From a virus: DNA of 23,279 nucleotides. A program made the position numbers and the translations under genes. The stretch lies in the IMG/VR virus record IMGVR_UViG_3300046012_000494, positions 1 through 23,279 of that record; one strand, given 5' to 3'. A model generated the notes under the pieces. The model saw nothing but the letters and a program-made list of their open reading frames with translations. It did no database searches and was not told where the DNA came from. The stretch's first letter is position 1. Every line of letters starts with the position of its first letter. Below, piece after piece: positions 6,011-22,137 of the stretch.

Positions 6011-6384
6011 CTCACAGCAAGCCCTCAGAGGCGCAGGACGGGCGAAACGGCCCACAGACGGTAGAAACTACACCCGGCCCGGTTTTAGACCTTGTGGCGA
6101 TTGAGGACCTTAAGTGTGAGTTGCTCGATAGCGCTGTTTGTCTATGGGATTCAGTAGATGTACTTGCCGCAATTGATGGACTGGTAGCCGAGGTCAAGCG
6201 GCTGAGTAATCTTGTGGCACTCTACCGGCGTGACCATGCGGTACAAGCAGCGGTTATTGATAAATTGGATTTGGAGATAGACCACTTGCAGACTGGCAAA
6301 GGTTACACCTGCGCCTGCTGTGGTGGGTGGCAGCCGGACGGGGTGTGCCACGCGTGCAAAGGAGTGAAAGATGCAAAGGCATAG
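6007..6384 (+). CDS. Coiled-coil protein with C-terminal zinc-binding motif
   Basis: A 125-residue protein in three parts: a polar, probably disordered N-terminus (1-30), a central helical region about 33-95 with heptad-like leucines and isoleucines (LVAEVKRLSNLVALYRR and VIDKLDLEIDHLQ), and a Cys-rich end (CACCGGWQPDGVCHAC) suited to bind zinc. The arrangement suggests an oligomer that presents a zinc knuckle to a partner or to nucleic acid. The family is not recognised. It is coupled upstream by ATGA and overlaps the next gene by 14 bases. Confidence 0.6.
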   Translation: MTHSKPSEAQDGRNGPQTVETTPGPVLDLVAIEDLKCELLDSAVCLWDSVDVLAAIDGLVAEVKRLSNLVALYRRDHAVQAAVIDKLDLEIDHLQTGKGYTCACCGGWQPDGVCHACKGVKDAKA

Positions 6385-6634
6385 ACAAGTAGGCCAGCGC
6401 GAGAGAGATTATTTGTTGGGAAGCCCACTTACTGAACGGGAATTAGCAATAATCCGCATGATAACTCAGGACAAGAACAATGCTGAAATAGGTCGCTATT
6501 TAGGTATAGCTGGGAATACCGTCAAAAACCATATTACGGCTTGTTTCGGTAAGTTAGGAGTTTATAGCAGAGTTGGCCTTGCCGTCTGGTACGTCACGAA
6601 ATATGGCAATCCTTTTCGACAATTAGCAAGTTAG
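6371..6634 (+). CDS. LuxR/GerE-type helix-turn-helix regulator (first of two)
   Basis: An 87-residue protein that is almost only a LuxR-type DNA-binding domain. LTERELAIIRMI opens helix 1, AEIGRYLGIAGNTVKNHI is the helix-turn-helix, and FGKLGVYSRVGLAVW is the closing helix. There is no receiver or ligand-binding domain, so activity is probably set by its own level or by partners. AAAGGAG lies six bases before the ATG, a strong site, inside the preceding gene's end. It lies just upstream of the terminase genes, the position held in many phages by a late-gene activator, which suggests but does not prove that role. Confidence 0.85.
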   Translation: MQRHRQVGQRERDYLLGSPLTERELAIIRMITQDKNNAEIGRYLGIAGNTVKNHITACFGKLGVYSRVGLAVWYVTKYGNPFRQLAS

Positions 6635-6649
6635 GAAACCCAGCCAACT

Positions 6650-6925
6650 ATGACCAACCCAACCGCCACCAATCTAAACCTAAACCAGCAGAGCCAGCCG
6701 CTAGAGCATCTTACCCGGCGCGAGCGGGAGGTAGCTTCGCTTGTGGCGTTGGCCCTGACTGATCGGCAGATAGCAGGGATTATCTTCATCTCACCCGAAA
6801 CAGTCAGATACCACATTAAAAGTATTTGTTCAAAGTTGGCTTTGCCGAATAGAACCGCCATTTGCCGCTGGGTGCTGGTTACGCATTACGAAGAAAATAC
6901 TACTGTTTTGGGTAGTGTGCTTTAG
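6650..6925 (+). CDS. LuxR/GerE-type helix-turn-helix regulator (second of two)
   Basis: A 91-residue stand-alone LuxR-type domain after a 20-residue polar leader. LTRREREVASLVALALTD, then RQIAGIIFISPETVRYHI as the helix-turn-helix, then SKLALPNRTAICRWVL. The Glu of the RREREV motif, the TVRYHI recognition helix and the KL spacing fit the family. It begins 15 bases after the first copy; the two share the fold but differ clearly in sequence, so duplication is old or they were acquired separately. The Shine-Dalgarno is modest (AGGAAA about 13 bases upstream). The pair could act as a heterodimer or as successive regulators. Confidence 0.85.
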   Translation: MTNPTATNLNLNQQSQPLEHLTRREREVASLVALALTDRQIAGIIFISPETVRYHIKSICSKLALPNRTAICRWVLVTHYEENTTVLGSVL

Positions 6926-9406: not shown

Positions 9407-9625
9407 ATGGATTTAGACCGTGTTAGCAAAGAGAATCTACAAGTTATGGTGGTAAGTTTAAGTAAACTTGTAGATATAAGTGTTGAAGCGTCTTTAAAGA
9501 CTGTAGGTGCGATTCGGGTATTTTCGCCTTCTGGTGCCGCATACTATGACCAAATAATAGAAATGATCAAGAAGAACCATGAGGTTATTTTGAACCCTCC
9601 AACTGTAGATGGGGAGAAAGTATGA
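9407..9625 (+). CDS. Small hypothetical protein
   Basis: A 72-residue unrecognised protein, AT-richer than terminase. An amphipathic helix comes first (SKENLQVMVVSLSKLVDISVEASLKTV), then IRVFSPSGAAYYDQIIEMIKKN. GAGGAAGGGATAGG provides the ribosome site before the ATG. Its TGA overlaps the methyltransferase ATG (ATGA). It looks like a helical accessory protein; no motif gives a function. Confidence 0.6.
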   Translation: MDLDRVSKENLQVMVVSLSKLVDISVEASLKTVGAIRVFSPSGAAYYDQIIEMIKKNHEVILNPPTVDGEKV

Positions 9626-10251
9626 CACTAGAGGTAACAAATAAGGCAATCCGCTTAAACTTAGGGGCCGGTAACTTCAAACCGCCCGGTTGGCTGTCAG
9701 TCGATATTGTCCCGGAGTTCGAGCCGGATTTGCTTGAAGACATTACCACCTTACCGAGCTTCGAGCCTGGCAGCGTGGACAGCATATTTTCGGGCCACTG
9801 TATAGAGCACGTCACAGACCCCATGGCCGCCCTGTTGCGCTGGTTTGAAATCCTCCGGCCCGGTGGCGACATAACTTTAAGTTGTCCTGACCACCAGGCA
9901 GCCGTCAATCTTTGGATGACCGCCCAACCTTTCCCGGTGCTGACCGACCAGCCCTTAACCGGGCTATTGGCAGTTACCACCGGGTTCTACTCATTCGCCC
10001 AGTACCAGCAGATGAAAGCCGCCAACCCGTTAGCCGCCGAAGCTCAGTCCCACAAACGCAGCCTTGACCTGCCCGTCTTATCTGCCCTCATGCAAGCCGC
10101 CGGGTTTGTCGGGTTGGAAAAGATTGACGAAACGATGCATGAATGCGCTCCTAATTTCGCTGAAAAAGTTACATGGCAGCTAATGTTACGCGGTTTGAAA
10201 CCACAATGGAAAAGGGATAGGAAGAAAGGAAGAAAAACTTACAATGGATAA
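9622..10251 (+). CDS. SAM-dependent methyltransferase (class I)
   Basis: A 209-residue methyltransferase of the Methyltransf_11-like type. Motif I is LNLGAGN (12-18). An acidic residue follows at D28 (SVDIV), then SIFSGHCIEH (54-63), then LRPGGDITLSCPD (78-90), the usual motif IV/V run. There is no target-recognition domain and no DPPY or PC motif, so it is not a typical DNA adenine or cytosine methyltransferase. Small-molecule, sugar or protein substrates are more likely. It lies in the accessory block between terminase and portal. It could cooperate with the glycosyltransferase at 20021-21358 in decorating particles or a host glycan; that link is inference. Confidence 0.85.
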   Translation: MTLEVTNKAIRLNLGAGNFKPPGWLSVDIVPEFEPDLLEDITTLPSFEPGSVDSIFSGHCIEHVTDPMAALLRWFEILRPGGDITLSCPDHQAAVNLWMTAQPFPVLTDQPLTGLLAVTTGFYSFAQYQQMKAANPLAAEAQSHKRSLDLPVLSALMQAAGFVGLEKIDETMHECAPNFAEKVTWQLMLRGLKPQWKRDRKKGRKTYNG

Positions 10252-10714
10252 AACCGTTTATATATTTTCTGGTTGGACACATGAGGCTGTTGATAGAATA
10301 GCCGACCAACTTAGAAAAGCAAACGAACCTAATGAATTCGATAAGTCAATGATTTTGTTATCCGGCAATTTACCGGAATACGGCAAAAGAGTTACGACTG
10401 ATAAAGTTGAGGATATTACTTTTGCTGATTTTATCCAGGAAGTATTGAGAAAAAAAGGGAAAGTAGGAGATAGCATGGCCGATGTTTCCTCAGTATTGCA
10501 GGTTGAAATCAACCAGGTCTATTTAGAAGCATTAAAACAGCAAATCAAAAGAATAGCCGACCTTGAAAAGCTAGTGCCGTTAGTGGGCCAGTTAATCACC
10601 GAAAACGGTAAGCAACTTGAGTTAATCCGGGGCTTGCAAGATCAGATAAACAAGTTGCTTGCGCTCCGGGAAGCCGATAACCAGGCGGTCTTAAAAGCGT
10701 TTTCAATTCGCTAG
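10244..10714 (+). CDS. Coiled-coil hypothetical protein with possible internal start
   Basis: A 156-residue unrecognised protein overlapping the methyltransferase by eight bases. The N-terminal half is globular (TVYIFSGWTHEAVDRIADQL). The C-terminal half (about 78-150) is a continuous helix with hydrophobic heptads (VYLEALKQQIKRIADLEKL, LIRGLQDQINKLLALRE) and is a likely coiled coil. An in-frame ATG at 10475 has AGGAG five bases upstream, a better site than that of the first start. The coiled-coil half could therefore also be made alone as a 79-residue protein. Function unknown; it may be structural or a regulator. Confidence 0.6.
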   Translation: MDKTVYIFSGWTHEAVDRIADQLRKANEPNEFDKSMILLSGNLPEYGKRVTTDKVEDITFADFIQEVLRKKGKVGDSMADVSSVLQVEINQVYLEALKQQIKRIADLEKLVPLVGQLITENGKQLELIRGLQDQINKLLALREADNQAVLKAFSIR

Positions 10715-10733
10715 AGGACTAACCATAACTACC

Positions 10734-10964
10734 ATGTCCAACCCACAGCCGCCCGACCAGACAACCGAACAGCCACAGCCCCAAGAGCAGCCCCAACAGA
10801 AGAAGGGGCCGCGTATTCGCTGGCTTGACGTGCGCTTTAACGGGACGCTGGTCTGCCGGGTGAACGCTGCCGACCCGACCCACTTGCAGATGCAAGCAAG
10901 GGCGCATGGGCAACGCCGGGTGGTGGAAGTCAGTACAAAGTCGTTGGGCGTGACGGGGATTTAA
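10734..10964 (+). CDS. Small hypothetical protein with Pro/Gln-rich N-terminus
   Basis: A 76-residue protein with a low-complexity N-terminus of Pro, Gln and Glu (about 4-23), then a basic KKGPRIRW and a small beta-rich part (LDVRFNGTLVCRVNAAD, RRVVEVSTKSLGVTGI). No family is recognised. The start is an ATG at 10734 with only a weak AGAGGA site. The flexible head and compact tail would suit an adapter protein; this is description only. Confidence 0.5.
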   Translation: MSNPQPPDQTTEQPQPQEQPQQKKGPRIRWLDVRFNGTLVCRVNAADPTHLQMQARAHGQRRVVEVSTKSLGVTGI

Positions 10965-10977
10965 GGGTAAAGTAGGG

Positions 10978-10983
10978 TATAAT
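10978..10983 (+). promoter_or_regulatory. Possible -10 box before the 136-residue gene
   Basis: A perfect TATAAT sits 23 bases before the ATG at 11007, followed by AGGAGGGG. No -35 element lies at 16-18 bases and the extended TGn motif is absent, so this may be chance in a GTA-rich stretch. Confidence 0.25.
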
Positions 10984-11006
10984 AGGGGTAGGAGGGGAAT
11001 GATAGC

Positions 11007-11417
11007 ATGAGTGATATTCCAGACTGGATTTATAAAATTTACGGCGGCCTAAATCTAACGCAAGCCGTTGAAATAATAGCTTCTTACGGGTATCCGATGG
11101 ATTGGCCGGAAGGGGTTGAAGAGTTCGTCGTAGATACTGAAGACCGACTCTTTCCTTACGCCCCTATCGTTATTCACCTGCGCCCACGGGTGAATATGGT
11201 ACTTCAGGAGACTATAGAAGAACCTGATTACATTACTTTAGGTGGCCGCCCTATAACCGCCCTACAGGCTATGGTAAAAACAAAAACAATTGTTTATAAA
11301 GCGGCGAAAAGGGGTTATTCGTGCTGGGTAGAAAAAGAACGTCTTGACCGCAAGACCAGTAGAGGCCATTGGGTTAATTTCTACTGGTGGGATTGGAAAT
11401 TAGAAGGAAAGAAATAA
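11007..11417 (+). CDS. Hypothetical protein, aromatic-rich
   Basis: A 136-residue protein that I do not recognise. It is rich in Trp and Tyr (WIYKIYGG, YGYPMDWPEG, WVNFYWWDWKLEG). AGGAGGGG lies about 10 bases upstream of the ATG. The central region looks beta-rich (APIVIHLRPRVNMVLQE) and the C-terminal part basic (KAAKRGYSCWVEKERLDRK). It stands between the terminase block and the portal promoter and may have its own promoter. An accessory cargo gene is likely, but no function is visible. Confidence 0.6.
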   Translation: MSDIPDWIYKIYGGLNLTQAVEIIASYGYPMDWPEGVEEFVVDTEDRLFPYAPIVIHLRPRVNMVLQETIEEPDYITLGGRPITALQAMVKTKTIVYKAAKRGYSCWVEKERLDRKTSRGHWVNFYWWDWKLEGKK

Positions 11418-11422
11418 CCCTA

Positions 11423-11451
11423 TTGACAGTAGTAACGTAATATGGTAAATT
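11423..11451 (+). promoter_or_regulatory. Strong sigma70-type promoter before portal gene
   Basis: TTGACA at 11423-11428, a 17-base spacer, and TAAATT at 11446-11451 preceded by TGG (extended -10). Predicted transcription start is near 11458. An ATATTG-ACCG-CAATAT palindrome (11454-11469) spans the start point and could be an operator. It probably drives the head-gene operon, or a short RNA ending at the downstream hairpin. Confidence 0.75.
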
Positions 11452-11457
11452 AGATAT

Positions 11458-11537
11458 TGACCGCAATATTTTAATATTTAGAACGCCCATGAGCGTCCCG
11501 ATTGACTACCGAGAGTAGTTGATAAGGGGCGCTTTTT
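11458..11537 (+). ncRNA. Structured leader RNA / possible attenuator or small RNA
   Basis: From the predicted start to the U-tract is about 80 bases. A long hairpin fills the end: AGCGTCCC (11492-11499) pairs with GGGGCGCT (11526-11533), and the inner ATTGACTAC (11501-11509) pairs with GTAGTTGAT (11515-11523) around a CGAGA loop. TTTTT runs 11533-11537. A small competing stem ACGC/GCGT (11483-11496) shares the left arm. A nine-codon frame (ATG at 11489, TAG at 11516) runs through the hairpin. The AAGGGG ribosome site of the portal gene is inside the stem. It may be an attenuator and translational switch, or a terminated small RNA. No known RNA family is recognised. Confidence 0.55.
11492..11537 (+). 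terminator. Intrinsic-terminator-like hairpin overlapping portal ribosome site
   Basis: Seventeen base pairs, including G-U pairs, with one small internal loop are followed by five Ts. This is structurally a good intrinsic terminator, yet it lies only two bases before the likely TTG start of the portal gene. Full termination would silence the head operon from this promoter, so conditional read-through or antitermination is expected if it works. Confidence 0.55.
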
Positions 11538-11539
11538 CA

Positions 11540-13846
11540 TTGTCACAACCACAGCAGCCCACCAACAATAACCACAACCAGACCCGGCCCCGCTTGCCCT
11601 TCTTTGTCAAGCCGGGGGCTTTGGCTACCCGCTTTGTGCAAGCCTCCAAGTCGTTCCTGGGGACATTCTCAGGCTCCGGCGGTTCGGTGGTTGGCCTTGA
11701 CAGTGGCGGCAGCGGCAACGGCATATTCGGCGGATACCGGCCCTCTAACGCCAACTTTACCAACCTTCCCATATCCCGGTTCAGGAATACCGGCGATTAC
11801 CTGGGCGCTTACAGTTCGATTGCCTCGGTCTATATTTGCGTCAATACGATTGCCAATTCCATAGCGGGGCTGCCCACCGACTTCATTGACCAGACGGGCA
11901 AGACGATTGCTACCCTCGGCCAGAAACCGGCAGAGGACAACTCCCTGGCCGCCCTCCTCGAACATCCCAACCCTTACCAGGACTGGTACGAGCTAAAAGA
12001 AACGCTGGCCGCTCACCTGGAGCTTTGCGGTAACGCCATCCTACTTATGGACAACATGGACGGTTTAGGCCGCCCTGAGTGCCTGTACCCGCTTAACCCG
12101 GCCTATATCAAGCTGGCTGTGTCACCTGATAGCGGCATACTTGGTTACATTTACGAACCGGGCGGCACTTCTAAACGGGTCTACGAACCTGACGAAATTC
12201 TCCACTTTAAAATGAGCAACCCGTCCTCAATCTTCTGGGGGCAAGGGACGCTGCAAGCCCTGGCCGGAAACCTCAATACCGAGATAGACATTAGCGACTC
12301 GGTCCAGGCCCTTTACCAGAACGGGGCGGTTATTCCAGGCGCATTCGTGGCTAAAGAACATATGACCGACCCGGACTTTGCGCGGCTTAAAGAACAGTTG
12401 TTGCAAGAGCATACCGGGATTTCCAACTTCTTTAAGCCCCTACTACTTGACGGCGGTCTGGACTGGAAGTCCATGAGCATAGGTCATACCGACCTGGGGA
12501 CTACCGACATTCGCAACTTGAACAGGGAAGAAATCTTCATGGGCTTTGGCGTTCCCATTTCCGAGGCGGGCCACCAGGGCCGTGCCAACGTCAAGAACGA
12601 CCACCTGACCGAAGTCTTCTGGTTAAACACAATTGCCCCCAAGACCCACCGCTTTGAGGGCGGGTTCAAGAAGCTGACCAAACGCTACGACCCGCGTTAC
12701 TCAATCAAATTCCCTTTGCCTATCAAAGTAGCCGAAGCGGAAATGCTGGACAACGTGATTAAGGTTGACAAGCTAACCAGCCTGTCCAACTCCGAGAAAC
12801 GCAAGGCGATTAAGACCATTACGGGTGAACAGTTCGGTTGGGGCGATATACCGGACGAAATGCCGCAAGAGGCGGCTGATGCAAGGCCGCAGCCCCAGGA
12901 CATTCGCGAAACCCTTAACCCGCAAAATGACCCCAAATTATCCTCATCCCCGGCTCAATTACCGACAGGGGAGCAAGCACCAACGCAAGCACCAACGCAG
13001 GCACAGCCTGAGAAACCGGGACTGACCGCTAACAATCAGGGCAAAGCCTTAACTCTGACTCTGACCGAGGACGCGAAAGCGGCTATCTGGCAGGACTTCG
13101 ATAAGAAAGCCACCGGCCTTGAGAAAGAGTTCGCCTCCGAGATTGAGGACGCGCTAACCGGCCTGGTTGATGACTTCTTATCCGAGCTTGACCTGTCCAC
13201 TGACAGTACGGCAGACACGGCAGACCAGGGCGCAAAAGCTCTCGGTATCTCACTCGGTATTCAAAAGCTCGGCACTGTTTTGATTGACCGCTTGCATAAG
13301 GCCGCCCTACCGCACATTACACAGGCTGTAATTGCCGGGTATCTGGATGCCACCCTCAACCACATGGGGCCAACCGGGAGCGGAAATCAAACAGGGGTAG
13401 CGAAAGAGGCGAAAGCCAGGGCCGCGCAAATGGCCGAAACGGTCTGGAAGAATACGAAGGATGCCATAGCCGCAATTACCGAGAATACCAGCGGTAAATC
13501 CCAGGCCGAGCAGATAAAGGAAATCCGAAACCTGTTTGACAGCGCGAGAGCGGCCACGATTGCCGGGACGGAAACGGTTAGCGCCCTCAACTACGGCAAG
13601 CTGACCGGGTTCGATGCTGCCGGGCAGAAGTCCCTCATGTGGGTCACGCGCCGGGACGGGCGGGTAAGGCATACCCACGCAAAGGCAGACGGGCAAGTCA
13701 GGCAAGACGGCAAAGCCTTCGAGGTTGGCGGCTACGAATTGAAATACCCCGGCGACCCGGACGCACCGGCCAAAGAGCGGGTCATGTGCCGTTGTACCCT
13801 CGCGGCATCGACCAGTGACGACAACGACAGTGTTAACGGCGGTTAA
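11540..13846 (+). CDS. Portal protein fused to MuF-type head morphogenesis domain
   Basis: A 768-residue fusion from the TTG at 11540, chosen because AAGGGG lies 10 bases upstream; an in-frame TTG at 11519 would add seven residues but lies inside the hairpin. Residues 75-420 are an HK97-type portal, the dodecameric DNA gate at the head vertex: YSSIASVYICVNTIANSIAGLP about 91, LYPLNPAYI, DEILHFK, FGVPISEAG about 336. A Pro/Gln/Thr linker follows about residue 440-490. The C-terminal part contains a MuF domain (about 660-755): ARAATIAGTETVSALNYGKL, then RRDGRVRHTHAKADGQV, and ERVMCRC at the end. MuF proteins are minor head proteins, usually separate. The fusion fixes portal and MuF copy number at 1:1. 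Boundaries are approximate. Confidence 0.9.
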   Translation: MSQPQQPTNNNHNQTRPRLPFFVKPGALATRFVQASKSFLGTFSGSGGSVVGLDSGGSGNGIFGGYRPSNANFTNLPISRFRNTGDYLGAYSSIASVYICVNTIANSIAGLPTDFIDQTGKTIATLGQKPAEDNSLAALLEHPNPYQDWYELKETLAAHLELCGNAILLMDNMDGLGRPECLYPLNPAYIKLAVSPDSGILGYIYEPGGTSKRVYEPDEILHFKMSNPSSIFWGQGTLQALAGNLNTEIDISDSVQALYQNGAVIPGAFVAKEHMTDPDFARLKEQLLQEHTGISNFFKPLLLDGGLDWKSMSIGHTDLGTTDIRNLNREEIFMGFGVPISEAGHQGRANVKNDHLTEVFWLNTIAPKTHRFEGGFKKLTKRYDPRYSIKFPLPIKVAEAEMLDNVIKVDKLTSLSNSEKRKAIKTITGEQFGWGDIPDEMPQEAADARPQPQDIRETLNPQNDPKLSSSPAQLPTGEQAPTQAPTQAQPEKPGLTANNQGKALTLTLTEDAKAAIWQDFDKKATGLEKEFASEIEDALTGLVDDFLSELDLSTDSTADTADQGAKALGISLGIQKLGTVLIDRLHKAALPHITQAVIAGYLDATLNHMGPTGSGNQTGVAKEAKARAAQMAETVWKNTKDAIAAITENTSGKSQAEQIKEIRNLFDSARAATIAGTETVSALNYGKLTGFDAAGQKSLMWVTRRDGRVRHTHAKADGQVRQDGKAFEVGGYELKYPGDPDAPAKERVMCRCTLAASTSDDNDSVNGG

Positions 13847-14324: not shown

Positions 14325-15266
14325 CTAGTGAATTATTTTGTAGCGGAACAGTTTTCTATTTTCAGGCAACTTACCACATGGTTTGCAAAACCCATGTATG
14401 GAACTCTGCCTGAGAGGAACTCCACAAGCAGAACAAATCTTTGGGGGAATATTAGCATAATAAGTTTTTGCTGGTCCCCATTTACGTTCAAGCCCAAAAC
14501 TTGTGCCGGCCTGCAAAATACCCATAACTTCTCTAGTTTGCAAGTTACCTCTAAACCAGAGTTGAACGGCTTTAGTTCTGGTAAGGCTGTTTATCTTGCT
14601 AGTACCTTTATAGCCAAGCTCGACCATAGTTTTCTGAAACCATTCAAGTGCAAGTTGGTTTCCGGTTATAACAATACGTTCTTTAAATTTATCCGCAACA
14701 ACATTGCCATCGCCATCAACCCAGCCTCTAAGGAAGTGTGGGAGAAGGTCAGTAGGTATCTCAGGCGGGATAAAGTTATAGGACTTCCTGGGGATTACAC
14801 CCCATTTAAGGAGTGTGGCATCAAGCCCCCAATGAGCCAGGGAAATAGAAACCATATCTCTAGGTTTCCTAGCCCTAGTTCTAATTTCGCCAGAGTAATT
14901 AATATCTTGAACGAATTGTTGCAGATGGTTCTTATCGGCACAACCGAGTTCAAGAGATACCGTGGTGGCATACCCAGATTTATTGATATTCCCATCCGCA
15001 AAAATAAACCCCGCCCAATAAGCGGTTTTTGGAGTGAGTTCATCGAAAAACCCATAGTCAAAGGTATTCTTTCGGGAATTGCCCCCGTTCCTTTGATTAC
15101 GTCTGGGAGAGTAAACACCTTTGGCTTTAAACAGGCTATTCAGATTGCCATTATTTATATGGTATTTCTTTTGAAGCTGTGTAGTCAAAGCCCCGCCGAG
15201 GTATTCAGAAACTATAGTTTCTTGCAATTTTTCGGGTATGTAGTTGTAATTTCTATTATCGCTCAT
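14325..15266 (-). CDS. LAGLIDADG homing endonuclease
   Basis: A 313-residue free-standing homing endonuclease, the only clear gene on the minus strand. Two LAGLIDADG helices are present, WAGFIFADG (84-92; D91) and FLRGWVDGDG (178-187; D186), so it should act as a monomer. An N-terminal part has helix-turn-helix character (LTTQLQKKYHINNGNLNSLF), and a C-terminal zinc ribbon has CSAC and CKPC. The ATG at 15266 is chosen over the TTG at 15272 because the promoter places the transcript start at or beside this ATG. It lies between the decoration-like gene and the capsid gene, ends one base from the former's stop, and is AT-richer than both. It probably cuts homologous capsid-region DNA lacking the insert. 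Confidence 0.93.
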   Translation of the reverse strand: MSDNRNYNYIPEKLQETIVSEYLGGALTTQLQKKYHINNGNLNSLFKAKGVYSPRRNQRNGGNSRKNTFDYGFFDELTPKTAYWAGFIFADGNINKSGYATTVSLELGCADKNHLQQFVQDINYSGEIRTRARKPRDMVSISLAHWGLDATLLKWGVIPRKSYNFIPPEIPTDLLPHFLRGWVDGDGNVVADKFKERIVITGNQLALEWFQKTMVELGYKGTSKINSLTRTKAVQLWFRGNLQTREVMGILQAGTSFGLERKWGPAKTYYANIPPKICSACGVPLRQSSIHGFCKPCGKLPENRKLFRYKIIH

Positions 15267-15272
15267 ACTCAA

Positions 15273-15301
15273 ATTATAGCAAGGAAAGTTCCTATTGTCA
15301 A
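15273..15301 (-). promoter_or_regulatory. Perfect consensus sigma70 promoter for the homing endonuclease
   Basis: Read on the minus strand: TTGACA (15301 to 15296), exactly 17 bases, then TATAAT (15278 to 15273). This is a full match to the consensus at both elements. The expected start point, about seven bases downstream, coincides with the A of the ATG at 15266, which predicts a leaderless mRNA. It also overlaps the translation-initiation region of the capsid gene on the other strand. Confidence 0.85.
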
Positions 15302-15319
15302 ATTGAGGCTGAGCAAGTA

Positions 15320-17605
15320 ATGCAAGACTTTACTTTCCCATTCGCAATATCTAGTAAGTCGGTTGCAGAAATATATCACGATGGCGAAGTCGGGATTTAT
15401 ATAGAAGGTTACTGCGCCGTGTGGGGGCCGCGTGACCGGGTTGACGAGAACTGGCGGTTAGACCTGTCGCGAGGCCGGACTTCTCGCAAGGCGCTGGAAA
15501 CCTACTTTGAAACCAACCCGATTGTCCTGTTCAATCACGGGCGGGACAGACAGGTGGGCCATAAAGCGGTCGGCGTTACGGTGGAATACCGCATTGACGA
15601 CACCGGGGTGTGGGTCAAGGACTTCATTCCAAAGCCCAGCGAGAAAGCGGTTGAGCTAACCGACATCTACAACAAAATCAAGGGCGGCCTTTACCGGGCT
15701 TTCTCGATTGCCGGGGTATGGGCCAGGAACGCCGCTAAAACGATTGTTGAAATCCAGGATGTTTACGAACACTCGATTGCACCCGTCCCGGTGCAAGGTC
15801 TGGCAACCTTCTCACTTTGTAAGTCACTCGAACTGCAAAGCGATTACGGCTTGAGCGTGGAAGATGCCTTCACATTGGCCGGTTCAGGGGCCGGGGTTTA
15901 TAGCGAAGGTGAGAAGGCCGGGGCGCGTAACAGCCGGACGGACAAAGCGGCTATTGAACAGGCGATTGCTTTACTCGAAGCCCTGACCGGTGAGAGTGAC
16001 GAAGACGATGGGCCGGACGGTGGGGCAACGCCAATGCAGAAGAACAGCAGTAGCAAGCCCAGGACAGGCATGACCATGACAGGCGGCAAGCCCAACCCTT
16101 TCTCAGCAGGGAAAGACATGGGTTCGATAACGGCAACAAGTTCTAAAAGTGAGGAACTTCAACTGAAGCAAGCCCTCAACAATTTAAAAGCACAAGGAGT
16201 TGAAACCAAAATGAGCGCAAAAACTCAAGACAAAGCGGCTGTTGAGGGCGGCAACAATGACCAGGACAGCCAGCAAGACCAGGGAACCATCACCTTTAGC
16301 GGGCCGGAAGCTAAGGCCATTCAGGAAATGTTAGCTGAGCGCGAAACCCTCAAAATTGAGGCGGCAGCTAAAGCGATTGTCGAGGCGCAACTGGCGAAAG
16401 AGGAAGCCGATGCCCAGGCCGAAGCCGATGCCAAACGCAAGTATGATGAGGAAGTCAACGCCAAAGCCCTTGAAATTGGCAAGGCATGGCGGCTAGGTAG
16501 CCGCATGAACTTCGGGGGCGATGCTGCGGCCAAGTCTTTCAACATCAACAAGGGTGCGGCTAAAAACGAGTTCTCCATTCTGAAGTTTGCCAAGTACGGT
16601 AAAGAGGGCCGGGAATGGCAGTACATCGAAAACCAGAAAGGCCTTGACGCGGGCTACAAAGCCCTGAATGAAACCGTTGGCAGCGCGGGCGGTTATCTTG
16701 TGCCTACCCAGCAGTCCACCGAGATTGTAGACCTCTTACGGGCGCAAGCGGTTGTCCGGCAAATGCCAGGGGTCCGGGTTATCCCGATGAGCAGCGACAC
16801 CATGACCATGCCCAGCCTGACCGCAGGCGCTTCCGCTTATTGGGGGGCGGAGGGCGCGGCCCTGACCACCAGCCAGCAGACCTTCGGCCAACTGCGCTTT
16901 GTGGCCCGTAAGCTTTACGCGGTGGTCCAGGTAACTAAGGAAATGATGGCTGACGCCAACCCCGGCATTGAGCAGATTGTCCGTGAGGACATCGCGGCGG
17001 CCCTGGCCCTCAAAGAAGATGACGCTTTCCTTCAGGGTAGCGGCAGCGGGGAAACCCCCAAAGGTATCTTGAACTCTGGCATTGGCACATTCGCCTATAC
17101 CACCGGGGCCGCTTCCGCCGCGCCTGAGTACAAAGCCTTTGTCAAAGCGGCTGGCCTTGTCCGAAACAACAACGCCCGGCCCAACGGCATGGTGATGCAC
17201 TCCCGCATCAGCGACCAGGTGCTTTCGGCAATCGACACCACCGGACAGCCTATCGCCTTGAACGCTATCGGCGGGTTCCGCTGGGCCGACATCGAGGCCG
17301 CGCAGGGCCGGACCTCGAATGACCCTAATCAGGTTCAGTTCGGGCGGTTAGTCGGTATGACCCAGGCCAACGCTAACCAGCTAACCATGAGCGCCAACAC
17401 CTCCGGCACTGGCACGGTCCTGGTCGGCGACTGGTCGAAAGTGCTTATCGGCGACCGGCAAGACCTTGAACTTGAAATTGACCGCAGCCTGGGCTTCCTG
17501 TCCGATACGGTCTATATCAAAGTGACCAAACGCTGCGACATCGTGGTAAGTATCCCCGGAGCCTTCTGCTCCGTGACTTTATTTCCGGGTCTGGATGTGG
17601 CATAG
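15320..17605 (+). CDS. Prohead protease - scaffold - major capsid protein fusion
   Basis: A 761-residue polyprotein holding three functions normally split between two genes. Residues 1-165 are an HK97-type prohead protease: FNHG (H73), RAFSIAG (S129) and YEHSIAPVPV (E150). Residues 166-320 are a low-complexity acidic/Gly/Ser linker. Residues 325-390 are a charged Ala/Glu/Lys helix typical of the scaffold (delta) domain. From about 420, an HK97-fold major capsid protein follows: SAGGYLVPTQQSTEIVDLLR, YWGAEGAALTTSQQTFGQLRF, LYAVVQVTKEMM, ALALKEDDAFLQGSG and FLSDTVYIKV. The upstream ribosome site is weak (GAGG, 11 bases). An in-frame ATG at codon 298 has its own AAGGAG. Self-cleavage should release mature capsid. 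Confidence 0.92.
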   Translation: MQDFTFPFAISSKSVAEIYHDGEVGIYIEGYCAVWGPRDRVDENWRLDLSRGRTSRKALETYFETNPIVLFNHGRDRQVGHKAVGVTVEYRIDDTGVWVKDFIPKPSEKAVELTDIYNKIKGGLYRAFSIAGVWARNAAKTIVEIQDVYEHSIAPVPVQGLATFSLCKSLELQSDYGLSVEDAFTLAGSGAGVYSEGEKAGARNSRTDKAAIEQAIALLEALTGESDEDDGPDGGATPMQKNSSSKPRTGMTMTGGKPNPFSAGKDMGSITATSSKSEELQLKQALNNLKAQGVETKMSAKTQDKAAVEGGNNDQDSQQDQGTITFSGPEAKAIQEMLAERETLKIEAAAKAIVEAQLAKEEADAQAEADAKRKYDEEVNAKALEIGKAWRLGSRMNFGGDAAAKSFNINKGAAKNEFSILKFAKYGKEGREWQYIENQKGLDAGYKALNETVGSAGGYLVPTQQSTEIVDLLRAQAVVRQMPGVRVIPMSSDTMTMPSLTAGASAYWGAEGAALTTSQQTFGQLRFVARKLYAVVQVTKEMMADANPGIEQIVREDIAAALALKEDDAFLQGSGSGETPKGILNSGIGTFAYTTGAASAAPEYKAFVKAAGLVRNNNARPNGMVMHSRISDQVLSAIDTTGQPIALNAIGGFRWADIEAAQGRTSNDPNQVQFGRLVGMTQANANQLTMSANTSGTGTVLVGDWSKVLIGDRQDLELEIDRSLGFLSDTVYIKVTKRCDIVVSIPGAFCSVTLFPGLDVA
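16211..17605 (+). CDS. Internally initiated scaffold - major capsid protein (nested product)
   Basis: The ATG at 16211 is in frame with the fusion gene and preceded by AAGGAG (16194-16199) at an 11-base spacing, a better site than that of the full gene. The product would be 464 residues: a short polar lead (SAKTQDKAAVEGG), the scaffold helix and the whole HK97-fold capsid domain, without protease. A phage head needs hundreds of capsid subunits but few proteases. A nested start would solve that ratio, as with the lambda Nu3 scaffold inside gene C. The start is inferred from sequence only. Confidence 0.55.
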   Translation: MSAKTQDKAAVEGGNNDQDSQQDQGTITFSGPEAKAIQEMLAERETLKIEAAAKAIVEAQLAKEEADAQAEADAKRKYDEEVNAKALEIGKAWRLGSRMNFGGDAAAKSFNINKGAAKNEFSILKFAKYGKEGREWQYIENQKGLDAGYKALNETVGSAGGYLVPTQQSTEIVDLLRAQAVVRQMPGVRVIPMSSDTMTMPSLTAGASAYWGAEGAALTTSQQTFGQLRFVARKLYAVVQVTKEMMADANPGIEQIVREDIAAALALKEDDAFLQGSGSGETPKGILNSGIGTFAYTTGAASAAPEYKAFVKAAGLVRNNNARPNGMVMHSRISDQVLSAIDTTGQPIALNAIGGFRWADIEAAQGRTSNDPNQVQFGRLVGMTQANANQLTMSANTSGTGTVLVGDWSKVLIGDRQDLELEIDRSLGFLSDTVYIKVTKRCDIVVSIPGAFCSVTLFPGLDVA

Positions 17606-21358: not shown

Positions 21359-21391
21359 CCAGTTAAAAGCAAAAGCAATAAGGGGTTTAGA

Positions 21392-21420
21392 TTGTTACAA
21401 TCGGCTAAAAATGATATAAT
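21392..21420 (+). promoter_or_regulatory. Extended -10 sigma70-type promoter for the HNH gene
   Basis: TTGTTA (21392-21397), 17 bases, then TATAAT (21415-21420) preceded by TGA as an extended -10. The predicted start is near 21427, giving a leader of about 130 bases before the ATG at 21559. Within the leader, TGGTA (21426-21430) can pair with TACCA (21440-21444). The gap from 21359 to 21558 contains no gene. Confidence 0.75.
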
Positions 21421-21533
21421 AGAGGTGGTAAAAGGACGCTACCAACGCCCTTCTACCAATGCGTTTAACCTGATTTCGGCAGGTCAAGGCAAGAGTAATT
21501 ATACCACGAATAATGCTTTTCCCCCTTCCCCTG

Positions 21534-21552
21534 CCTCCTATTTTCAAGGAGG
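21534..21552 (+). promoter_or_regulatory. Hairpin sequestering the HNH gene's Shine-Dalgarno
   Basis: CCTCCT (21534-21539) pairs perfectly with AGGAGG (21547-21552) around a seven-base loop. AGGAGG is a full Shine-Dalgarno six bases before the ATG at 21559, so the folded RNA hides it. This predicts low or conditional translation of the endonuclease, comparable in logic to the stem-loop that restrains phage T4 I-TevI. Confidence 0.75.
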
Positions 21553-21558
21553 TCAATT

Positions 21559-22137
21559 ATGCCTTTTACTATTACTTGCGGTTACTGCAAGAACCCTTTC
21601 TCTTCAAAAAGTTCTACCCGTAAATATTGCTCTACTACTTGTGCTGGTATTTTTAATAATAATACCAAGCCTTTTGAAGAAATATTCTGGTCACAGGTTG
21701 ATGTATCAGGTGGCCCTGATGCTTGCTGGCCCTGGGCTGGCGGGCGAAACAAAAACAACTACGGCACTCTCAAACGAAAAGGTAAAAATTACCTTGCCCA
21801 CCGAATTGCTTATACCCTTACCTATGGGGCTATCCCAGAGGATAAACCCCACATTTGTCACGCTTGCGACAACCCGCCATGCGTCAACCCGCGTCACTTA
21901 TGGGCGGGTACTAATCTGGATAACGTCAAGGACAAAATTAAAAAAGGCCGGGGCGCGAAGACATATTCAAACAATGGGGAAAACCATTGGAAAACAAAGT
22001 TAACAGCAACGCTAGTGCGCGAAATGCGCGATTTGTACAACAAGGGGAATTTAAACGCCCCCGCGATAGCTAAAATTTATGGAATTAACCGCACTACTTG
22101 CTACAACATTGTTACCGGGCAAAAGTGGCGGATTTAG
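21559..22137 (+). CDS. HNH homing endonuclease
   Basis: A 192-residue free-standing endonuclease. N-terminal zinc ribbon: CGYC (7-10) and YCSTTC (24-28). Central HNH core (about 55-125): CWPWAGGRNKNNYGTL, LAHRIAYTLTYG (H81), HICHACDNPPCVNPRHLWAG and TNLDNVKDK, the HNH_3 layout with N110 and H113. C-terminal helix-turn-helix (about 165-190, APAIAKIYGINRTTCYNIV) for site recognition. The start has a perfect Shine-Dalgarno held in a hairpin. It lies between the glycosyltransferase and tail tube genes and is AT-richer than both. All catalytic residues look intact, so it is probably active. Confidence 0.92.
   Translation: MPFTITCGYCKNPFSSKSSTRKYCSTTCAGIFNNNTKPFEEIFWSQVDVSGGPDACWPWAGGRNKNNYGTLKRKGKNYLAHRIAYTLTYGAIPEDKPHICHACDNPPCVNPRHLWAGTNLDNVKDKIKKGRGAKTYSNNGENHWKTKLTATLVREMRDLYNKGNLNAPAIAKIYGINRTTCYNIVTGQKWRI

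Follow-up and report, generated by a model that had tools for sequence, protein, structure and literature searches.

The window analyzed here is a 23,279-nt stretch of viral DNA (IMG/VR record IMGVR_UViG_3300046012_000494; IMG/VR records are fragments), and the element under study lies directly upstream of its portal-MuF fusion gene. The portal-MuF protein is 768 aa long, and TTG 11540 is in frame with it. Extra (cargo) genes occupy 9407-11417 between terminase and portal, and a 136-aa ORF upstream of the leader has its stop codon at 11417, 6 nt before the beginning of a promoter. A search for relatives of this ORF found none; it is preceded by a TATAAT-like box and a strong Shine-Dalgarno (SD) sequence (10964-11007). 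The features of the element are as follows.

11423-11451, + strand: sigma-70-type promoter, TTGACA-N17-TAAATT with an extended -10 (TG), 10/12 consensus positions
11458-11490, + strand: predicted 5' part of the leader RNA, A/U-rich with little structure (prefix fold -3.8 kcal/mol)
11489-11518, + strand: mini-ORF within the hairpin (ATG...TAG, MSVPIDYRE), sharing the frame of the portal gene and lacking an SD
11491-11534, + strand: terminator-type hairpin; two 9-bp helices, outer and inner, separated by a G/AA internal loop and capped by the loop CGAGA
11523-11529, + strand: SD sequence UAAGGGG in the right arm of the hairpin, a good SD match by inspection
11533-11537, + strand: U-tract (T5), the 3' end of a short RNA as predicted from sequence
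11540-13846, + strand: portal-MuF fusion gene with a likely TTG start (Pfam PF04860, 2.8e-51, and PF04233, 8.5e-11; phrog_2662)

The mini-ORF is probably incidental. Read-through of its TAG into the portal frame was considered and ruled out, because TAG ends a neighbouring gene (10714, by eye) and recoding is not needed. Elsewhere in the window, a LAGLIDADG-type endonuclease gene lies on the minus strand within the head operon (14325-15320) and has a perfect 12/12 extended -10 promoter (15301-15273, minus strand). An HNH endonuclease gene (21385-21575) has TTGTTA-17-TATAAT and a 15-bp hairpin upstream, the hairpin pairing better on the minus strand. Two adjacent small LuxR/GerE-type helix-turn-helix genes (6371-6925) are possible regulators.

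A first-pass annotation, made from the sequence alone, had described a consensus-like promoter leading into a 17-bp terminator-type hairpin that contains the ribosome site of the portal gene, and this anatomy was recovered. The promoter consists of TTGACA (11423-11428), a 17-nt spacer and TAAATT (11446-11451) with TG ahead of the -10 hexamer, and ranks second best in the window on either strand in a scan that scored promoters against the consensus only. The hairpin has 18 bp, in two runs of nine pairs separated by the G/AA break; its core GCGUCCC/GGGGCGC together with the inner AUUGACUAC/GUAGUUGAU accounts for the 16-17 bp originally seen. For 11458-11545, the minimum free energy (MFE) is -25.3 kcal/mol (z -3.35), a value equalled by 2/200 shuffles. 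We assign the hairpin to the + strand RNA (-24.0 kcal/mol, versus -14.5 for the complement), since its G-U pairs turn into A-C mismatches in the complement. The T5 run is followed by CA and then by TTG 11540, so that it ends two bases ahead of the likely portal start, as annotated. The ribosome site is likewise in the right arm, and the four Gs of UAAGGGG are paired with a probability of 1.0.

The features of an intrinsic terminator are present (d 9.1, core -21.0 kcal/mol, UUUUUCAUUG), and this is the sole positive terminator score in the 23 kb on both strands, the score being a d'Aubenton-Carafa type formula and not a measurement. By itself, a terminator of score 9.1 is unremarkable in 23 kb: the score was reached somewhere in 15/60 single-strand shuffles. 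A promoter of at least 10/12 with a terminator 35-140 nt downstream occurred in 8/600 shuffles (both strands), and the same combination at d≥9 and dG≤-20 in 0/600.

Two alternative pairings are available to the leader of the window. ACGC (11483-11486) is complementary to GCGU (11493-11496) in the terminator left arm; this 4-bp pairing ranks 10 of 16 against unrelated leaders, which is not above chance. The second combines GAACGCCC with the right arm and the U-tract, and requires a blocked left arm to form (-15.1 kcal/mol, versus about -25 for the main fold).

Searches with the window returned no close relative of the phage in viral, genome or phage collections. A DNA search of phages, an exact search for the hairpin pattern, a search of genome contigs, and scans with the portal, the capsid and the 136-aa ORF gave nothing close; portal relatives were obtained, with only about one quarter to one third of their residues in common. 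A search of Rfam with the window gave no family above the gathering threshold, and a single lncRNA match of chance level at a relaxed threshold, in agreement with the first-pass annotation, which recognised no known RNA family in the element. A pRNA-like packaging RNA was also considered, and no structural resemblance was seen. As no close relative was available, the layout was looked for in distant relatives instead.

Loci were collected from many phages by terminase and portal searches. A scan that was not conditioned on the finding covered 123 loci (987 kb) with 288 promoter-like sites, and terminators were sought around each site. Terminators 59-112 nt after the -10 hexamer formed 15 pairs, or 13 distinct modules after removal of duplicates, and 12/13 are on the late-gene strand; the 260 nt before the promoters contained no terminator at any of the 288 sites. 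Modules adjoin the portal in the window, L017, L066, L067 and L087, and precede a gene that heads the terminase operon in L063, L064, L066 (first copy) and L120, this gene being TerS-like in L064 and L120. The U-tracts of these modules end about 10-20 nt ahead of the start codon. The leader of L017, whose portal is 26.6% identical to that of the window, contains TTGACA-18-TAGAAT with TG, and a 19-bp hairpin follows after a gap of 95 nt; the leader as a whole folds with z -5.36. The layout is not universal, since no leader terminator was found in L038-L044, which have a portal tblastn match and belong to a set of eight loci taken from phage records at portal or terminase matches. The majority of the surveyed portal loci are without such a module.

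The order of promoter and terminator bears on a housekeeping explanation, in which the hairpin is merely the terminator of the upstream cargo genes (9407-11417) and the promoter is fortuitous or constitutive, with no regulation involved. Extra genes do sit between terminase and portal, and many terminators close such gene blocks. However, the promoter precedes the terminator in the window and in a dozen other modules, and the opposite order is absent within 260 nt; we regard this explanation as improbable.

The position of the U-tract bears on a second alternative, in which the product is the 80-nt RNA itself, a phage small RNA of trans-acting or structural function that is made from a promoter of its own and ends at its own terminator. 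A single-stranded A/U-rich 5' part followed by an intrinsic terminator is the anatomy of many bacterial small RNAs, and the first-pass annotation had listed this option. Against it, the U-tract is repeatedly placed 8-20 nt before the start codons of virion genes, which argues for control in cis. This alternative is very improbable in our estimate; attenuation would yield the terminated RNA, about 80 nt long, as a by-product.

A third alternative is that control is mainly translational, with the hairpin masking both the SD and the start region, and with the U5 run as an incidental feature. The full pairing of the SD in a hairpin of -24 kcal/mol favors it, and the suggestion that the element blocks translation is compatible with this copy. 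It does not extend to the other phages, as the recurrent feature is a stem with a long U-tract, and by inspection the hairpins of L066, L067 and L087 contain no SD. Mainly translational control is quite unlikely.

Two further leaders were noted during the survey. L066 has a second promoter-terminator module (1081-1200), located before an HNH-type gene that heads its terminase operon, and the sequence of this leader differs from that of the L066 portal leader. In L158 (1500-1580), L159 (3800-3870), L162 (3760-3840) and L170 (3770-3840), an apparent second leader RNA type has a 5' hairpin and, after it, an ACUAYGWGA-like loop sequence just before the portal-leader terminator stem, apparently an antiterminator with a different loop.

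Nearer relatives of L066, L067 and L087 were then retrieved using these as queries. In the L067 family, a long hairpin and a U-tract end directly before the portal at 16 loci. Portal leaders with antiterminator and terminator RNA are those of L067, L087, L126, L128, L130, L132-L139, L202, L203 and L206; the RNA was also noted in L215. The same portal occurs on genome contigs that include those of Candidatus Taylorbacteria, Kaiserbacteria and Nomurabacteria, and the hosts of these phages are therefore most likely Patescibacteria.

Pairing tests included 15 of the 16 loci. The terminator stem sequences vary across the family, yet remain complementary: terminator arms paired with their own partner give -16.4 kcal/mol, versus -8.1 kcal/mol with exchanged partners (0/5000 permutations as good). 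Upstream lies an antiterminator core of 30 nt, in which a 5' strand forms a 6-bp helix with the terminator left arm, the latter serving as the 3' strand. Between the two strands come a bulge of 2 nt, in most cases GA, and then a 4-bp hairpin whose 5-nt loop is generally rich in A. The antiterminator and terminator helices are mutually exclusive. In register, 82/90 antiterminator positions pair, versus 65 expected (0/20000; register by eye). The first 15 core sequences were registered by eye, and for this reason the register-free permutation and the out-of-sample test matter. Without hand alignment, antiterminator strands give -10.1 kcal/mol with their own partner and -8.1 kcal/mol with exchanged ones (0/5000). 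In five sequences outside the training set, 45/50 positions pair (1/20,000 shuffles as good).

Pairing holds in 93.6% of cells of the gap-free 30-nt core, with a covariation of 0.689 versus 0.283 when shuffled. Addition of the five further sequences gave 92.5% paired and a covariation of 0.705 (0.300 ± 0.033 shuffled), with two-sided changes in 8/10 pairs, and sliding the partner by one column lowered antiterminator pairing to 44-52%. Unconstrained MFE folds of L067, L087, L132, L134, L066, L139 and L203 switched with length: the prefix up to the left arm folds into the antiterminator, and the full leader into the terminator. Taken from sequence comparison, the portal leader of the Patescibacteria phages thus looks like a genuine attenuator, in which terminator and antiterminator both covary.

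A covariance model (R1) was built from 11 core sequences and searched against about 1.5 Mb. It matched portal leaders of this group only (E 3e-7 to 5e-4), the next matches being at chance level, and recovered the unseen cases L202, L203 and L206 (E 4e-7 to 2e-5). The L128 phage carries a second copy of the RNA before its prohead protease-capsid genes, and a third, similar leader before a small gene, probably structural, two genes upstream. That a single phage has three copies, each ahead of a virion operon, argues for a common trans-acting factor. Rfam contained no match to representative relative loci, no published description of this RNA was found in the open-access literature, and the ICP1/PLE transcriptome paper contains no matching capsid leader attenuator.

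Membership of the window element in the R1 family was considered and dropped: the model gave the window hairpin (11494-11533) 10.4 bits (E 1.4), with a better chance match elsewhere, and across the window record nothing at E≤1. What the window has is the arrangement, namely a promoter, a leader, a long terminator hairpin and a U-tract ending just before the portal start. The element would thus share the layout of the Patescibacteria leaders and is not demonstrably the same RNA family.

Among known systems, the RAT elements of BglG/LicT/SacY are imperfect antiterminator hairpins of about 30 nt that take up the terminator left arm and are mutually exclusive with the terminator (PMC3369936), resembling the mutually exclusive antiterminator of the Patescibacteria phage leaders. 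The latter differ in having a GA bulge and one 5-nt loop, versus two asymmetric internal loops in RAT, and in preceding virion operons rather than sugar genes; the window copy shows no demonstrated antiterminator. CAT_RBD (PF03123) was not found in the phage records, some of which are fragments, whereas control genomes gave matches. In ANTAR (AmiR/NasR/EutV) dual-hexaloop leaders, P2 comes after the P1 hairpin, and the distal strand of P2 overlaps with the terminator (PMC3369936). The phage leaders are alike in this order, but by inspection their loops have 4 and 5 nt and lack the A1/G4 hexaloop. A search of the phages for ANTAR proteins was empty, but its positive control gave no match either. 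Autogenous attenuation of a structural-protein operon, as in ribosomal-protein leaders (B. subtilis rplJL, PMC4538822), is a possible model.

Lambda pR'-tR' with Q offers another comparison, in which late genes are expressed by read-through of a terminator near a strong promoter. If the window element were controlled in this way, a processive antiterminator loaded on the DNA would modify polymerase at the promoter, and polymerase would read through the leader terminator and later ones, making an RNA switch unnecessary. The layouts are alike (strong promoter, short terminated leader, late genes), and no antiterminator RNA is visible in the window copy. For lambda Q, both a DNA element and a pause close to the promoter are needed (PMC7171158). 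An imperfect 23-nt direct repeat in the window (11421-11443/11455-11477, 74%) spans the -35 and start region, but may be a chance event. The window module also differs from pR'-tR' in standing directly at the portal, with its terminator abutting the start codon, and in one phage several operons each have a copy. Relatives use an RNA antiterminator, and neither a Q21-type (PF06530) nor a NusG-type gene was found in the phage records or in the 23-kb window fragment, where no antiterminator protein was recognised and where Q21-type was the only Q family searched separately. DNA-loaded antitermination of the Q type is unlikely, and remains the strongest rival for the window copy.

Our preferred reading, held with moderate confidence, is that the window element is a promoter-proximal transcription attenuator heading the portal operon, with secondary translational gating. 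RNA polymerase would start near 11458 and transcribe about 75-80 nt, and by default transcription would stop at the hairpin and U5 just ahead of the portal start. A signal keeping the hairpin from forming or acting would allow transcription into the portal and downstream head genes. We infer termination at the hairpin, its conditional nature, and its relief by a trans-acting, probably phage-encoded factor. As the hairpin pairs the portal SD, leaked transcripts would be poorly translated. The U-tract of no more than five residues weighs against this reading. Attenuation had been the first of the options in the first-pass annotation; it gains strongly, by comparison, from the recurrence of modules before portal and terminase genes and from the covarying antiterminator of one phage group, but not from the window's own 4-bp alternative. 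Judged by its layout, the element is probably an attenuator to which this copy adds a sequestered SD, and probably an on/off gate for virus head production.

More tentatively, and with less confidence than for the window element itself, the element may belong to a widespread, undescribed regulatory layer in tailed phages, consisting of promoter-leader-terminator gates that stand at the first codon of the portal and other virion operons and are opened by a trans-acting factor via an antiterminator RNA. If so, attenuation rather than promoter choice would switch head-protein synthesis, which bears on the timing of late genes in most non-model phages, where neither a phage RNA polymerase nor a known Q/N protein is at hand. 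For Patescibacteria phages, a covarying switch that one phage repeats ahead of its portal, its capsid operon and a small structural gene is a concrete and testable answer, and the antiterminator RNA provides a handle for finding the factor that binds it. The window points to the same logic in phages of other hosts.
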